A stretch of 52,881 nt of DNA from NCBI GenBank assembly GCA_007693955.1, contig RECR01000135.1:1-52881 (forward strand), given 5' to 3'. The first letter of the stretch is position 1, and each line of letters starts with the position of its first letter. Shown piece after piece: positions 10,674 to 52,675 of this stretch. This DNA is from Gloeocapsa sp. DLM2.Bin57 (GTDB taxonomy: Bacteria; Cyanobacteriota; Cyanobacteriia; Cyanobacteriales; Gloeocapsaceae). Both the position numbers and the translations under genes were made by a program. The notes beneath the pieces are model-generated. The model saw only the letters and a list, made by a program, of their open reading frames with translations. It was not told where the DNA came from and did no database searches.

Positions 10674-11036
10674 ATGCTGACAGTTCTCGTAGTAGAAGAC
10701 GTACCTTCCCAACAGCAATTAATTGCTAGCTATCTTCAAGAAGTTGGCTACAACGTAATCAACGCTAACAATGGACAAGAAGCACTAGAAAAAGTGAACA
10801 ACCAAAAACCAGACGTAGTAATTACAGATTTAGTAATGCCGGGAATGAGTGGTTTAGAATTATGTCGGAATCTAAAAAAAAATCCCACCACCCAAAAACT
10901 ACCTGTGATAGCTTGTACCTCCAAAAATCAAGAATTAGATAGACTCTGGGGGATGAAACAAGGAATAGACGTTTATGTAACTAAACCCTTTACCAAAGAA
11001 GAAATTATCCGCGCAGTGCGTTCTGTAGCTAATTAG
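10674..11036 (+). CDS. CheY-like response regulator (PixH/PilH type)
   Basis: A 120-aa single-domain receiver: acidic pocket VVEDVPS, phospho-acceptor Asp in ITDLVMPGMSG, and YVTKPF near the end. Position two of the chemotaxis operon, between the PATAN regulator and CheW, matches PixH/PilH/HmpB. It should receive phosphate from the hybrid CheA at 14506-17223 and influence pilus motors, by analogy with those systems. A 24-base gap separates it from the upstream gene, and an ATG preceded by AAAAAGGA gives a clear start. Confidence 0.88.
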   Translation: MLTVLVVEDVPSQQQLIASYLQEVGYNVINANNGQEALEKVNNQKPDVVITDLVMPGMSGLELCRNLKKNPTTQKLPVIACTSKNQELDRLWGMKQGIDVYVTKPFTKEEIIRAVRSVAN

Positions 11037-26046: not shown

Positions 26047-27438
<1,392 letters not shown>

Positions 27439-27442
27439 TTAC

Positions 27443-27520
27443 AGCTTCCCTCCGCTGGTATTACCCAGTCTCAGGTTCTTAGGGTCTATCTCAGCCTGGT
27501 TGAGCCAAGCACCCCTAGCT
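27443..27520 (-). promoter_or_regulatory. TPP riboswitch (THI element) of thiC
   Basis: Read on the minus strand the leader contains, in order, AGGGGTGC, GGCTGAGATAGACCC, GAACCTGA, CTGGGTAATACCAGCG and GGAGGGAAGCT, the conserved core of the thiamine pyrophosphate riboswitch. Its 3' end is 22 bases from the thiC start, consistent with control of translation initiation, although no full terminator hairpin was sought by folding. It follows directly after the promoter at 27531-27559. Confidence 0.95.
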
Positions 27521-27530
27521 ATAAAGACGT

Positions 27531-27559
27531 ATCATAGCATAAGGTTTTATTTTTTTCAA
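27531..27559 (-). promoter_or_regulatory. thiC promoter (-35 TTGAAA, -10 TATGAT)
   Basis: Minus strand TTGAAA (27554-27559), a 17-base spacer and TATGAT (27531-27536) give a good sigma-70-type promoter, with start expected near 27524, at the very 5' edge of the riboswitch. The -35 box overlaps the stop codon (27556-27558) of the open frame extending from the upstream operon, so the two transcription units abut. Confidence 0.75.
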
Positions 27560-27841
27560 CTATTACGGTTTAATTCTCTAATTTTTTCAATTAAAGCTAG
27601 ATACTCCTTGAGGGTATCTTCTGCTTTTTTTAATACTTCTAAGTCAGCAGATTGGAGACGACCTTGTTTAGCGAGTTCTTCTAGTTGTTCTTTTTGTCTT
27701 AAAAAATCCATCACTTGAGTAATTTCTAATCCTTTGGTTAAGAATTGGAAACCTTCATTTAAAATAGCATCGAAATTATGAGAAAAATTGTAATCGCTGT
27801 TGCTGTTGCTATAACCGCTGTATTGACTAGAGTTTTTTTTT
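27556..27841 (-). other. Alternative -1 frame coding for a charged helical C-terminal tail
   Basis: If one extra A is read at the A9 run, the 249-aa protein continues NSSQYSGYSNSNSDYNFSHN, then NFDAILNEGFQFLTKGLEIT, MDFLRQKEQLEELAKQGRL and TLKEYLALIEKIRELNRNS, stopping at TGA 27556-27558, for a total of about 317 aa. The stretch is open for more than 90 codons and its amphipathic, Lys/Glu-rich pattern is clearly protein-like. An in-frame ATG at 27711 could instead start a separate ~50-aa protein, but the coherent sequence begins before it. Which form is native cannot be decided without homologues. Confidence 0.6.
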
Positions 27842-28508
27842 CCGTTGCAGTAGTTGGGGTTAATTCGTCTGAAGAGATACGATTAGATAAACCTCGCCAA
27901 ACCTTAAGTCTTTCTAAGTCAATTGCTGATTTAATGCTAGTAATTACTATTAATAATTGGCGATTAGTTGGTAAACAATTAGTTTGAATTTCTAGGGCTA
28001 ATTGTTGTCTGAGAGTTTCATTATTATTACCCAATTGAGCAGGATTATAACTATTATTATAGTAGTTAAGTTTAACTAAATCAGTTAATTTTTCTAGTTG
28101 GTCGGTATCAATTCTAAAACTATTATTTAAGTTGTTATCTCGGTAGATAATCTCTTCAAGTGCGTTAGCTAATTGTCCCTCTAAAGCAGCTACGGTTAAA
28201 CTTCTGATTTGAGCTTCTTCAGGAGAAATCCAAAGTAGAGAATTACGAATTTTTCGCCCCATAAAATCTAATTCTGGTGGTGTTGCTTCTAAACCAGTAA
28301 CCAATAAAATAAAATAGGGTTGCTGATAAGCTAAAACCAGAGAAAACATTTGACTATCAATCAAAGAAACTAGAGATAATCGATTAAGAATCTCAGGGAT
28401 AGCGGTTACTTGGTTATTATCTTCGATTTTTAGCCAACAGTAATCATCTTCGGGAGTAATTCCCCTACTTTGAATATAGATAGACGTATTGTTATTTAAC
28501 TTAGCCAT
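27759..28508 (-). CDS. Protein of GTPase operon with C-terminal hydrophobic tail (standard frame)
   Basis: 249 aa in the standard frame. I do not recognise the family. The N-terminal ~110 residues look like a small alpha/beta domain (SLVLAYQQPYFILLVTGLE); a helical middle follows (LRQQLALEIQTNCLP, LLIVITSIKSAIDLERLKVW). A Thr-rich linker with EKK leads to a final hydrophobic segment AVIATATAITIFLIISMLF, suited to anchor the protein in a membrane. The codons for EKK form part of an A9 run (27833-27841); reading one extra A would swap this tail for a different one (see next feature). It overlaps the upstream GTPase gene by 13 bases and ends a five-gene operon. Confidence 0.7.
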   Translation of the reverse strand: MAKLNNNTSIYIQSRGITPEDDYCWLKIEDNNQVTAIPEILNRLSLVSLIDSQMFSLVLAYQQPYFILLVTGLEATPPELDFMGRKIRNSLLWISPEEAQIRSLTVAALEGQLANALEEIIYRDNNLNNSFRIDTDQLEKLTDLVKLNYYNNSYNPAQLGNNNETLRQQLALEIQTNCLPTNRQLLIVITSIKSAIDLERLKVWRGLSNRISSDELTPTTATEKKTLVNTAVIATATAITIFLIISMLF

Positions 28509-29479
28509 TTTTCCCCTTTTAAAACCGCGAAACCCTCGGTAGTTTTACAACCATTAGCAAATTGATTAATAGCTATTTTCAGATGTTCATCAACTCTCAA
28601 CCAATCCCTGAGAAAATTAAAAATTCCCCAATTACCATTCTCATAGTGTAACTTCAACAGAAAACGTAATAAATAACGTAAGGGTTGTTCACTATCTTGG
28701 GGATTATATTGAGCGTCATGACGTATTTTGCGAAAATAAAAATGAGGGAGATTGTAGGTATCTACTTCTAAACGAGAAAAAACCACACTTCCTACGGTTT
28801 GTACAGGAGTAATTACACTAGCAATCCAGGGGGTAAGTTGTTCAGAATTAAAATGATCTAATAATCCCCCATAACCCTGACGAATAGCGTTAACTAACTC
28901 TTTAGTAGATTTTTCGTTTTTGAGGTATTTTTCGCATTTAATGGGAGCAAAAATCACTAGTCGGGGAGAGTTTAAATCTTGGTACGCTTGTTTAATTAAA
29001 TCTTTAATCTGTTGAGGACGATTGATACGTTCATGAAATTTACCCTTTTGTTCCATTAAAGCAGGTGCATCGATGGCAATTAAGACAGCGACGGAGTTTT
29101 GTAACAAATTTTTAACAAATTCCTTCTCGGTGGTTGTAGCTTTAGCGGTGTGATAACCACCTGGATAGTCACGAAAGTGTAACTCTAATGAGGGAGTACG
29201 TCCTTTTTTACCGATACTAAAGATAAAAGAGCGTAAAGATTCAGGACCTGCGGGAGCTTCTGTACCTTGAATACCTCTTCTATCTCTAGCTTCAAAGACG
29301 TCGAGCATACCTTTTAATTCTACCAAACGATCTTGTAAAATGGCTGAACTTTCTTCATTGGGAGTAAGTTGTAAATCAGTCAAACCAATATTACTCTCAA
29401 ATTGTTCATACATAGCGGTTAACAGGGTAGTTTTACCTACACCCGATGGCCCTAACATGGTGATTTCGAGTTTTTCCAT
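28496..29479 (-). CDS. P-loop GTPase of the GTPase module
   Basis: 327 aa. The Walker A/G1 motif GPSGVGKTT lies at about residues 10-18, a DxxG-type G3 in FRDYPGGY, and a hydrophobic strand VAVLIAIDAPAL before a region where an NKxD G4 motif would be expected but reads FAPIKCEK, so base specificity is uncertain. It lies seven bases downstream of the dynamin-like gene and overlaps the 249-aa gene by 13 bases. Function unknown; the module suggests the three proteins act together, possibly at a membrane. Confidence 0.75.
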   Translation of the reverse strand: MEKLEITMLGPSGVGKTTLLTAMYEQFESNIGLTDLQLTPNEESSAILQDRLVELKGMLDVFEARDRRGIQGTEAPAGPESLRSFIFSIGKKGRTPSLELHFRDYPGGYHTAKATTTEKEFVKNLLQNSVAVLIAIDAPALMEQKGKFHERINRPQQIKDLIKQAYQDLNSPRLVIFAPIKCEKYLKNEKSTKELVNAIRQGYGGLLDHFNSEQLTPWIASVITPVQTVGSVVFSRLEVDTYNLPHFYFRKIRHDAQYNPQDSEQPLRYLLRFLLKLHYENGNWGIFNFLRDWLRVDEHLKIAINQFANGCKTTEGFAVLKGEKWLS

Positions 29480-29486
29480 CGTTACT

Positions 29487-31676
29487 TTAGTTCAAAAATC
29501 GCAACTTATCTAGTTGATTAGCGGATGTTACCTGCTTTACTAAGTCTAACCATTCCCGACGCATTCTGGTTTGTGTTCCAAGTTGGGCGAATTCTTGTGA
29601 CCAAATTTGATCGCGAATTTCTTCGAGGAATATACGCCATTGACTTTTGATTCCTTGGGATCTTAAAACGCGATCTAAAAACTCCTCTAGGATAGCAAAA
29701 GCAGCCTGACTTGGTTCGGCTAATAAGTCGTCTAAAGCGGTTTGACATTTATAGACTGCTTCAGCGTGGAGCGATCGCAAACAGTTTAACACTTCAGAGG
29801 CGTTGGGATTGGTAGATAATTGTAAAGAAGTAAAATTAGGAGTCAAATCATCGAGATGCACTCTAATACGATGTTGGATCATACCCCGATAAGAGAGATT
29901 AAAATCAGCCAGAATTTGAAATCCTAAACTTAAATCGGTTAATTCTGGGGGGATTTGGCTGATAACCTGATTCAGAAAGTCTGTAGCTGTGGTTTTATCT
30001 AGTTTACCAAGATGAGCTTGTTCAGTTAAGATTTGAGCTACTTCTGATTTAACCCTGTCTATACCCTTTTGTAAACCCTCATCTAGTAAGAGGAAATGTT
30101 GAGAGAGATGGGCGCGAATTTCGTTGAGATACTCATAATAAGCGTTAGGATAACCTCCGAGACGTTTACGACGAGTTTCGATTTCTTCTAGAGTAGGAAT
30201 ACCCGTATCGGTTTGACAAGCTTGTATCGCTGCTTCTACTTGTTGTTTAAAGTCTAAATCTTCCCAGTCTCTTTGTTCTCGAAATTTACTGAGTAAATCT
30301 TCTAAACTAGTGGTTAAATTATCCCAAAGTTGCTCAAATAATTGCTCAAACAGAGGAAACCAATTACCCAGAGAGACTAATTTTAAGACTTGTTGGGCTT
30401 TAGCTAATTCAGCGTTAAGGGTATGATGAATCTCCAGGAGACGTTGTTGACAAGAATGACTATACTGTTGGTCTAGGGTAGTAATGTTTTGAGTCAGATA
30501 GTCTAAGACTGGATCTAGTATTTGTTCATGGGCTTCCGTAGGATTAGCACAGTCAGCAATAATACAATCAACGGTGTAGAGATGTTTATCCAGATAAGAG
30601 TTAGCTAAATCCTGACAATAGAGAGAGTTATCTTTAATGGGGGAATCAGCATTAGTGCGATTGAGAATCAAAAAAGACCACTTGTCTAGGGGTAAATCTC
30701 GCAAAGCTTGATTAGCGATATCATAGAGTTGTACATCTACATCAGCCCAATAGTCACGGGGTGGACGTGGTAAACGGATAAATAGGACTAAATCTACATC
30801 TTTACCTAATACCTGAATCAGTCTTTCTTGGTCTCCTAATCCAGTATCTCCTAAACCTGGCATATCTACTAAAGCGATTTGTCCTAAGTCTTGGTTAGGA
30901 AAACTACAGATGATTTTAGCTTCTTTAGCGGCTAGATAGTTAGAGTAGATTCTTTCTCCTTCTGGGGTATCTTGAGCTATATAAGATCTAATTTCCGCTT
31001 TAGGGATAACGTAGGGAGAGGTAACCCGAAAGAGATGACGGTATTTGGGTAAGTTAAGATGATAATGACTGAGATGTTCATACATCGCCCCTGAAACAGC
31101 ATTATTAGCTAGAGTTTCTGGTAAAGGGGGTAGAGGTTGACTAGCAAAGCTATCTAAACTCGGGGGTTTTAAGCCGAGATGGAGTTTATCATAATAGGGA
31201 TAAATCACTTCTTCGAGAAAGGATGTCTCTGAGTGAAACCAGATTTCCCCATAGGTTTCTAATTGGGGATGGTGATAGATAGTGCAACGTACTCCTGTAC
31301 AATGTTGGCGATCGCCTGTAGGAATTTCTGTATTAGTTAAACCCGAGAGACTTTGTAATAAACGGCTTTTACCTTGTCCTGCTCTACCTATTACCCCTAA
31401 ATTAAGGGTTTGACGGGAAAATCTAGCTTTTAGTTGGTTTAATACGCTTATTTCTGTGTCTAGCTTATTGCTAAGAGTGATATAGTCTATTGTTTCTAGA
31501 TAGCTACTGAGTTTAACGTCGTTGCTTTGAGATAAGATTTGTTGTCGGTAATTTTCTAGTTGTTGTAATTTCTCTTGGAGTAGTTTAAGGTTGAGTTCTA
31601 CTTCTTTAATTCTTTCTCCGAGGGGGAGACGTTGAGCAATAATTTGTTTAATTTGGTTACTTGTGGTTTCTAACAT
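29487..31676 (-). CDS. Large dynamin-like GTPase
   Basis: 729 aa. An N-terminal coiled-coil region (about 1-85) precedes a GTPase domain with G1 GRAGQGKSRLLQSL, a possible switch Thr in CTGVRCT, G3 VDMPGLGDTG and a G4-like LNRTNAD. A long helical C-terminal region follows, typical of bacterial dynamin-like proteins, without an obvious membrane segment. The ATG at 31676 directly follows the stop of the Nudix gene (TAGATG), and the next GTPase starts seven bases after its end. Membrane remodelling is possible for dynamin relatives, but the role here is unknown. Confidence 0.75.
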   Translation of the reverse strand: MLETTSNQIKQIIAQRLPLGERIKEVELNLKLLQEKLQQLENYRQQILSQSNDVKLSSYLETIDYITLSNKLDTEISVLNQLKARFSRQTLNLGVIGRAGQGKSRLLQSLSGLTNTEIPTGDRQHCTGVRCTIYHHPQLETYGEIWFHSETSFLEEVIYPYYDKLHLGLKPPSLDSFASQPLPPLPETLANNAVSGAMYEHLSHYHLNLPKYRHLFRVTSPYVIPKAEIRSYIAQDTPEGERIYSNYLAAKEAKIICSFPNQDLGQIALVDMPGLGDTGLGDQERLIQVLGKDVDLVLFIRLPRPPRDYWADVDVQLYDIANQALRDLPLDKWSFLILNRTNADSPIKDNSLYCQDLANSYLDKHLYTVDCIIADCANPTEAHEQILDPVLDYLTQNITTLDQQYSHSCQQRLLEIHHTLNAELAKAQQVLKLVSLGNWFPLFEQLFEQLWDNLTTSLEDLLSKFREQRDWEDLDFKQQVEAAIQACQTDTGIPTLEEIETRRKRLGGYPNAYYEYLNEIRAHLSQHFLLLDEGLQKGIDRVKSEVAQILTEQAHLGKLDKTTATDFLNQVISQIPPELTDLSLGFQILADFNLSYRGMIQHRIRVHLDDLTPNFTSLQLSTNPNASEVLNCLRSLHAEAVYKCQTALDDLLAEPSQAAFAILEEFLDRVLRSQGIKSQWRIFLEEIRDQIWSQEFAQLGTQTRMRREWLDLVKQVTSANQLDKLRFLN

Positions 31677-32101
31677 CTAAAGATAGTTTAGGAATTCTTC
31701 AGGTACTACTGTTAATTCTCGCGAAAGACAGGAGTTTATGTCCACCCATAGGGCGATTTTTGTTCTCGTTTTTTCAGTAAAGGTTAATTCCTGGAGTTGG
31801 TAAAAATGAGGATCGAGGAAATCACAGCTATAGAGTTGGATAATTTCGTGTTTAGGTTGGTCTTCCAAGGTGAAAATATTCTCAATACATCCTAAATAGT
31901 TTATATTGGTTAGTTCTGCTGCTATTTCTTCCCTAAATTCCCTTTTTAAAGCGTCTAAGCTCGTTTCTTGCCAATCTACGCCACCACCTAAAGCCCGATA
32001 AAAAGTGCGTTGAGTGACAGAATCCCACCCCCGAGAGAGAAAGATTCTATCTCTATCTCTGATTAAACCTAGTGCTACAATGCGGATTTTTTTTTACTCA
32101 T
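31677..32101 (-). pseudogene. Nudix hydrolase gene interrupted at an A9 run
   Basis: ATG 32101-32099 reads MSKKKSAL and stops in the frame as given. With ten A instead of nine at 32087-32095 it reads MSKKKIRIVALGLIRDRDRI and stays open to TAG 31677: about 141 aa. The Nudix box is recognisable as GGVDWQETSLDALKREFREE, with Ala replacing the last conserved Gly. Start and stop fit the operon tightly: the ATG overlaps the upstream stop, and the stop abuts the next ATG. That makes a decayed gene less likely than slippage or a one-base assembly error. Substrate unknown. Confidence 0.75.
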
Positions 32102-48838: not shown

Positions 48839-49982
48839 CGCCAAAATTAAACAAGGCTCAGCTGTAGTTTGGACAGTAGCGGAACTGAAAAAAAAAGTCA
48901 AAGAAATAGGAGTAAAAAACTGTTATGAACAAGTAGATGTTATCTGTACAGGAACATTTGAACCGATGGAGTCATCGGGAGCATTCATCAATATTGGACA
49001 TACAGATCCACCCATCAAAATTCGCCAATGTTGGTTAGATGGAATCCCGGTTTATGCGGGTTTTGGCGCAGTGGATTTATATTTAGGTGCTACTAGTATG
49101 GCTGATTACGGTGGAGAAGTTCCCGAAGCTGAAGAAAAAGGAGGAGGTCATATTATTGAGGAGTTAATCGCGGGAAAAACAATACACTTACGCGCAATTG
49201 GACAAGTAACCGATTGTTATCCGAGAGCGTCTCTGGAAACCTCGATTAACCGTGATACCATTAACCAATTTTATTTATTTAATCCTCGCAATCTCTATCA
49301 AAATTTTATCGTTGGTGTGAATGCCGGCGATCGCCCACTGTTTACCTATCTCGGTCCATTATTACCGCGTTTAGGGAATGCTGTTTACTCTAATCCTGGG
49401 GCGATTTCCCCTTTATTTAACGATCCTAAATTAGAAGTCATCGGTATTGGTACGCGGATTTTTTTAGGTGGAGCAATAGGTTATATTACTTGGGAAGGTA
49501 CACAACATTTTCCCTTGCAAAAACGTTTACCCAATGATACCCCCATTGGACCTGCAGCTACCTTAGCTTTAATTGGTAACGCTAAAGAAATGGATTCTTA
49601 CTGGGTGAGAGGTTGTTATTTTAAACATTATGGACCATCTTTAATGTTAGGTGTGGGGATACCCTTACCTGTTTTACACGAAGGAGTAATTAAACGTTGT
49701 GGGATTCAAGACGAAGAAATAGTTACTCCCATTATGGATTTTTCGATACCAAGAAGAGTACGTCCTACTTTTGGGTTAGTTAGTTATGCTCAATTAAAAA
49801 GCGGTAAAATTACCATTGAAGGGAAAACAGTTAGAACAGCACCCTTAGCTAGTATTGCTCGTTCTTTAGAAGTAGCAGAAGCCTTAAAAAGTTTAATCGA
49901 AAAAGGTGATTTTACCTTAACTGAGTCTGTAGCTTCTTTACCGATGGATCGTTCATTTTTACCTCAAGATAATAGAAAGTAG
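48795..49982 (+). CDS. DUF39/HcyBio-family protein (aspartate semialdehyde sulfurtransferase-like)
   Basis: 395 aa. The conserved pattern TFEPMESSGAFINIGHTDPP, GFGAVDLYLGATSMADYGG, GGGHIIEELIAGK, NPGAISPLFNDP and IGTRIFLGGAIGYITWEGTQ is that of the homocysteine biosynthesis family (DUF39). In methanogens a relative works with a ferredoxin-like partner to make homocysteine from aspartate semialdehyde; the activity in cyanobacteria is inference. The ferredoxin/NIL partner gene is not adjacent. Its stop overlaps the start of the lytic transglycosylase gene by one base. Confidence 0.8.
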   Translation: MSAKMKQIRTIQSINAKIKQGSAVVWTVAELKKKVKEIGVKNCYEQVDVICTGTFEPMESSGAFINIGHTDPPIKIRQCWLDGIPVYAGFGAVDLYLGATSMADYGGEVPEAEEKGGGHIIEELIAGKTIHLRAIGQVTDCYPRASLETSINRDTINQFYLFNPRNLYQNFIVGVNAGDRPLFTYLGPLLPRLGNAVYSNPGAISPLFNDPKLEVIGIGTRIFLGGAIGYITWEGTQHFPLQKRLPNDTPIGPAATLALIGNAKEMDSYWVRGCYFKHYGPSLMLGVGIPLPVLHEGVIKRCGIQDEEIVTPIMDFSIPRRVRPTFGLVSYAQLKSGKITIEGKTVRTAPLASIARSLEVAEALKSLIEKGDFTLTESVASLPMDRSFLPQDNRK

Positions 49983-52634: not shown

Positions 52635-52675
52635 GAAAAAACTCAAAAAATTTTTTTTTATAGCGTTACTTGAAA

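Follow-up and report, generated by a model that had tools for sequence, protein, structure and literature searches.

The third gene of a cyanobacterial operon that also encodes a dynamin-like GTPase and a DO-GTPase is very probably a programmed-recoding gene, whose two reading frames would give membrane-anchored and soluble isoforms. Comparison of homologous loci shows that the coding arrangement with two ends exists and is conserved, and programmed recoding is by far the best explanation for it.

The operon and the two ends of its third gene

We analyzed a stretch of 52,881 nucleotides from Gloeocapsa sp. DLM2.Bin57, hereafter the window, in which the three genes are read in one direction, in the order dynamin-like GTPase, DO-GTPase-like protein, and the two-ended ORF as the third of the three. 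The DO-GTPase-like gene and the start of this partner gene overlap by 13 bases. The features of the unit, all on the minus strand, are as follows.

29487..31676 (-): large dynamin-like GTPase, the first gene of the operon, with a Dynamin_N match below the curated cut-off
28496..29479 (-): DO-GTPase-like protein (Pfam DO-GTPase2, PF19993, E 2e-7)
27759..28508 (-): frame-0 ORF (249 aa) for the N-terminal domain and a hydrophobic helix at the C-terminus, the predicted membrane-anchored isoform
27843..28508 (-): N-terminal domain, 222 aa, common to both isoforms, alpha/beta fold, no Pfam family
27833..27841 (-): slip site, a run of exactly nine A (AAAAAAAAA) preceded by G and followed by C
27762..27818 (-): transmembrane helix AVIATATAITIFLIISMLF in frame 0, predicted from sequence (hydropathy)
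27559..27834 (-): -1-frame tail, 92 codons following the EKK that both isoforms share, with the stop TGA at 27556-27558
27430..27526 (-): TPP riboswitch of thiC, directly downstream, which bounds the unit and lies outside the mechanism

Other nine-base runs of A or T were observed in the window at 10874-10882, 32087-32095, 48888-48896, and 52651-52659.

In frame 0 the A9 run is read as GAA AAA AAA ACT, with A_AAA_AAA present in phase, and the ORF ends in ...ATEKKTLVNTAVIATATAITIFLIISMLF. With one A added, which corresponds to the -1 frame, reading proceeds through EKKNSSQYSGYSNSNSDYNF...LNRNS for 95 residues counted from the slip codon, so that the frameshift isoform has about 317 aa compared with 249 aa for the standard one; a shift in the other direction at A9 meets a stop within a few codons. 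The tail consists of a linker rich in Ser, Asn, Asp, and Tyr, followed by three predicted helices, and its stop ends at 27556, from which 29 bases separate it from the thiC TPP riboswitch. Both ends thus agree with the sequence-only reading made earlier of this DNA, which had described a hydrophobic segment at the end of the standard frame and, after slippage, a soluble linker plus helices running up to thiC. The frame-0 product is predicted from its hydropathy to be a membrane protein. The helix and the disordered linker are two readings of the same bases, given by the genetic code: a helix written in NTN codons reads as rich in Ser, Asn, Asp, and Arg in the -1 frame, and the linker composition therefore follows from the helix.

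We propose that the standard reading would yield a protein with a single C-terminal transmembrane helix, tail-anchored and with its N-terminal domain facing the cytoplasm. At A9, RNA polymerase would slip in some of the events and add one A, and the ribosome may also slip back one base, given the in-phase A_AAA_AAA that A9 holds. The -1 frame would then swap the anchor for the hydrophilic linker and helical tail domain, resulting in a soluble isoform with the same N-terminal domain. This organism would then make both proteins, and the two forms would split the GTPase partner between membrane and cytoplasm.

The N-terminal domain was modeled by AF2 with a pLDDT of 91. Its best PDB matches listed were mostly longin/roadblock regulators of GTPases, among them TRAPP, FLCN, GATOR1, DENN, and Ragulator (Z near 4), at unspecific Z values of only 3-4; Foldseek gave E values of about 0.01 or worse for this domain, no Pfam or NCBIfam model matched it above chance, and models of defence systems gave chance-level matches only. 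Of the two neighbors, the DO-GTPase-like protein matched PF19993 at 31.3 bits against a cut-off of 27, and the large GTPase reached 20.4 bits with Dynamin_N, for which the cut-off is likewise 27, with PDB sequence matches only at E 0.02. On the grounds of the strict operon together with the weak GTPase-regulator-like fold, we consider the chances about even that the partner protein regulates or scaffolds the two GTPases, one form being held at the membrane and the other free.

Conservation of both ends among homologues

On this sequence alone, an equally long open frame was kept in 2 of 5000 dinucleotide shuffles of the tail DNA (probability 4e-4). Runs of exactly nine A occur 59 times in the 3.45 Mb of this genome, about once per 58 kb, so that a single A9 run is weak evidence. 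The case for a real arrangement comes from the homologues and not from this sequence by itself: A9 is kept at one place in homologues that are just ~35-45% identical, and chance is therefore no explanation.

A sample of about 1,070 genomes was queried with the gene or its N-terminal domain, together with a search for the neighboring GTPases. It yielded 128 distinct homologous ORFs, a set that includes some fragments and same-genome paralogues; nearly all were gene 3 of the operon, with a DO-GTPase gene recognizable on the same strand in 122 of the 128, and the comparison of neighborhoods across homologues covered the three-gene unit. Two copies of the operon, elsewhere cyanobacterial (L033 and L035), lie on contigs titled Chloroflexaceae and Hyphomicrobiales MAGs, which may reflect mis-binning or transfer.

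Loci were scored as dual-frame when an A-run of at least six lay just before the frame-0 helix and the -1 frame was open for at least 60 codons and not hydrophobic. This rule selected 33 loci, reduced to 30 by dropping the doubtful L100 and two loci of the genus g10 (L009 and L147), which were left out of the counts because their frame with one added A is not tail-like. The run was exactly A9 in 26 of these 30, A7 in two, and A6 in two; overall, an exact A9 was found in 26-27 of about 30 loci that combine a frame-0 helix with a -1 tail of at least 60 aa, with kin treated as independent in such counts. Dual-frame loci without A9 carry A_AAA_AAG, A_AAA_AAA, or A_AAT_TTT in phase, and in L083, L084, and L085 there is no A-run, with A_AAT_TTT at the equivalent site and the tail in the -1 frame. 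The congeners G001 and G002 share A9, helix, and tail with the window, and the dual architecture reaches many families beyond them. Comparison of C-termini, the check suggested by the sequence-only reading, thus found that about 30 divergent homologues combine the frame-0 helix with the -1 tail, in nearly every case at an A9 run or some other slippery site. Nor do the homologues consistently have one end and no A-run: A9 was present in 25 of 35 homologues with a long -1 frame versus 5 of 69 without one (Fisher p 1.8e-11, relatives being treated as independent). A few loci deviate, namely L082, where A9 is followed by a -1-frame stop ahead of the tail; L004, a low-coverage assembly; and genus g10, in which the other frame holds the soluble alternative. 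Among the A9 loci, some (L100 and L015) have -1 frames that are short or of low complexity.

Each end also shows conservation of its own. High-hydropathy helices lie at the equivalent place in most tail-less homologues, so the helix is no by-product of the tail. In the tail past the frame-0 stop, dN/dS was 0.13-0.30 in 13 of 13 pairs; dS in the overlap was mostly lowered, as dual coding would be expected to lower it, several of the dS values being large and rough. Tails could be aligned across families, and an HMM built from 14 of them recovered tails that had not been used to build it, in L083 (6e-22), L032 (2e-18), L082 (4e-11), L030 (2e-6), L086 (4e-5), and L163 (2e-4); with the exception of L095, none of the matched tails shares a frame with the N-terminal domain. 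In 291 genomes, a profile of seven tails gave 14 matches, all adjoining this gene, and no tail gene away from it. AlphaFold predicted a disordered linker and three helices with moderate confidence (pLDDT 68, too uncertain for a fold search), and no Pfam or NCBIfam model matched the tail above chance. The pairwise dN/dS comparisons show that purifying selection acts at the protein level on the tail past the frame-0 stop.

Slip mechanism, alternatives, and evolution

The heptamer would need 8 A in phase-1 runs and 7 in phase-2 runs, yet the length is nine in both: the ninth A was found in 23 of 23 phase-1 runs, and phase-2 A9 runs carry two extra. The conserved surplus argues that run length itself matters, and hence for transcriptional slippage, which is also favored by the absence of both a downstream structure and a Shine-Dalgarno-like motif at most A9 sites. 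Downstream fold z values are scattered around zero at most A9 sites, versus -3.1 to -3.8 at three A_AAT_TTT sites; two sites with A_AAA_AAG gave -1.7 and -0.7. The latter five loci form one clade, with A_AAT_TTT in L083, L084, and L085 and A_AAA_AAG in L086 and L127, X at codon position 3 in all, and a stem-loop 3-6 nt downstream, with energies of -20 to -22 kcal/mol in four and about -14 in L086. L083 and L127 are near-identical downstream, and the heptamer itself differs. Some of the hairpins include GCGATCGC, a palindrome that is common in cyanobacteria and may have helped these hairpins arise. Family searches for further members of this stem-loop clade found few. On these sequence features, the A9 lineages probably slip mainly during transcription, and the clade with heptamer plus stem-loop probably shifts by -1 on the ribosome. 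In Escherichia coli, cassettes of another gene shifted at 40% with A9 and 10% with A7, and slippage at A9 is described for dnaX of Thermus thermophilus (PMC3711429).

Ribosomal -1 frameshifting on A_AAA_AAA could instead operate everywhere, with transcriptional slippage playing no part. An in-phase A_AAA_AAA does lie inside every A9, nearly all loci shift by -1, and the related clade with A_AAA_AAG or A_AAT_TTT and a stem-loop must be ribosomal or nearly so; set against this are the surplus As past the heptamer, conserved in both phases, the scarcity of structures and Shine-Dalgarno-like motifs around A9, and the A9/A10 loci of genus g10, whose soluble end lies in a frame that -1 frameshifting from the helix frame does not reach. 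We consider this account unlikely, though worth keeping in mind. It is decidedly improbable that the run changes length in the DNA at replication, so that each cell would make one form by phase variation. Such a process could have left the runs of 10 and 11 with a swapped coding frame (L011, A10; L095, A11), but in the A-run class of dual-frame loci the length is 9 over many genera instead of being spread over 8-11, and the A_AAT_TTT and A_AAA_AAG loci are unable to vary in that way.

A slightly smaller chance still is given to the tail being a separate small protein, with translation beginning either at a start codon inside the gene or, by reinitiation, at the frame-0 stop. The sequence-only reading had raised the question of whether any genome encodes the tail as a separate gene, and at most one case was found: in L175 (G189, about 1365-1842), a distant paralogue, a tail ORF of 98 residues begins with an ATG that overlaps the stop of frame 0 (ATGA). 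No A-run precedes the helix in L175, and its tail is possibly translated separately. Against this account as a general one, no conserved start codon was found in the tail frame, a start with a Shine-Dalgarno-like motif was found in 1 of 31 loci, and no ATG, GTG, or TTG in the tail frame of the window leaves 60 aa; it would also leave the conserved slip sites unexplained. That a sequencing or assembly error, or decay of the gene, hides a run of another length and a single real frame is hardly credible. Homopolymers are error-prone and some of the assemblies have low coverage (L004), but an equal length recurs in 26-27 loci of separately sequenced genomes and in two codon phases, both ends are conserved, with the tail under purifying selection, and at other loci that lack an A-run a slippery heptamer takes over its role. 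Error and pseudogene were thus rejected on conservation and dN/dS.

We placed the loci on a FastTree of 119 N-terminal domains, a quick tree in which several deep forks are weak. The A9 state occurs in two deep groups, the heptamer sites occur in one clade of five members and in two single loci, and about 80 of the 119 rows have no tail and keep the anchor only, so that those lineages can do without the second product. On this FastTree, gains are indistinguishable from losses. In genus g10 (L009, L147, and L011), an A9 or A10 run lies at the equivalent place and the soluble end, 40-41 aa, is in the opposite frame, which fits slippage in either direction. Two loci reverse the arrangement of the window, with frame 0 encoding the soluble end and a different frame the helix: L095 (G453), which has an A11 run and whose soluble end is the tail, and L011 (G039), which has an A10 run. 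In a deep second clade (L101, L161, L102, L103, L019, L163, and L156), the -1 tails are longer, at about 200-280 aa, in several of them the tail motif looks doubled, and the DO-GTPase match is followed by a gap of some 350-500 bases. For the family as a whole, we lean toward an old cyanobacterial GTPase module in which slippage would serve as a switch of membrane/cytosol partition, with the homopolymer setting the ratio, and in which polymerase and ribosome were exchanged as the slipping machinery while the -1 outcome was kept.

Relation to known systems and significance

Outside mobile elements, programmed recoding in bacteria is known from a limited set of genes (dnaX, prfB, csoS2, copA, and others). 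Our search found no described bacterial membrane/soluble switch of this kind. This gene family was not found in the main text of the GeneTack study (Antonov et al. 2013), whose clusters resemble the present case in that bacterial genes change frame at conserved poly-A sites, with some of these transitions verified in E. coli. A close parallel is dnaX, which encodes the tau and gamma forms of DNA polymerase III, in that two C-terminal forms come from one bacterial gene and the sites divide into A9 and heptamer-hairpin types: A_AAA_AAG with a stem-loop in some species, and transcriptional slippage at A9 in T. thermophilus (PMC5009743, PMC3711429). In dnaX, however, the shift gives a truncated subunit, whereas here, in another protein family, a coded soluble domain would take the place of the membrane anchor. 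In transcript editing of the Ebola virus glycoprotein, slippage at an A-run determines whether a soluble or a transmembrane form results (PMC5009743), and a frameshift in alphavirus 6K yields a second product, TF (PMC5580485); unlike the present gene, both depend on viral machinery and unrelated proteins, and the standard Ebola product is the soluble one, whereas the standard product here is predicted to be anchored.

Among GTPase systems, the DO-GTPase/GAP1 systems have a GTPase gene followed by a partner gene, commonly contain membrane segments, and are reported to be nearly absent from cyanobacteria (Kaur et al. 2020, PMC7159879). The operon is similar in that the neighboring GTPase matches DO-GTPase2 and the partner gene follows it; however, Pfam GAP1 models found no GAP1 domain in the partner protein or in 16 homologues, and a dynamin-like GTPase is the constant third gene. 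On this Pfam test, assignment to a GAP1 system was rejected because of the missing domain and the reported near-absence from cyanobacteria. Bacterial dynamin-like proteins (such as cyanobacterial SynDLP and paired DLP operons) offer another likeness, a large GTPase with a weak Dynamin_N match beside a second GTPase; unlike the solved members, the large GTPase here has no significant sequence match to them, the second GTPase is of the DO type, and the partner belongs to no known family.

If true, the finding would add a recoding family that extends over many cyanobacterial genera and in which recoding chooses between an anchor and a soluble domain. Alongside dnaX, it would offer a further natural example of A9 slippage and heptamer-plus-hairpin frameshifting standing in for one another, and since the two interchange, selection on the outcome, and not on the mechanism, can be studied. 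Annotation ORF by ORF reveals the anchor form only. The finding may also serve as a handle on an uncharacterized operon of dynamin-like and DO-type GTPases.
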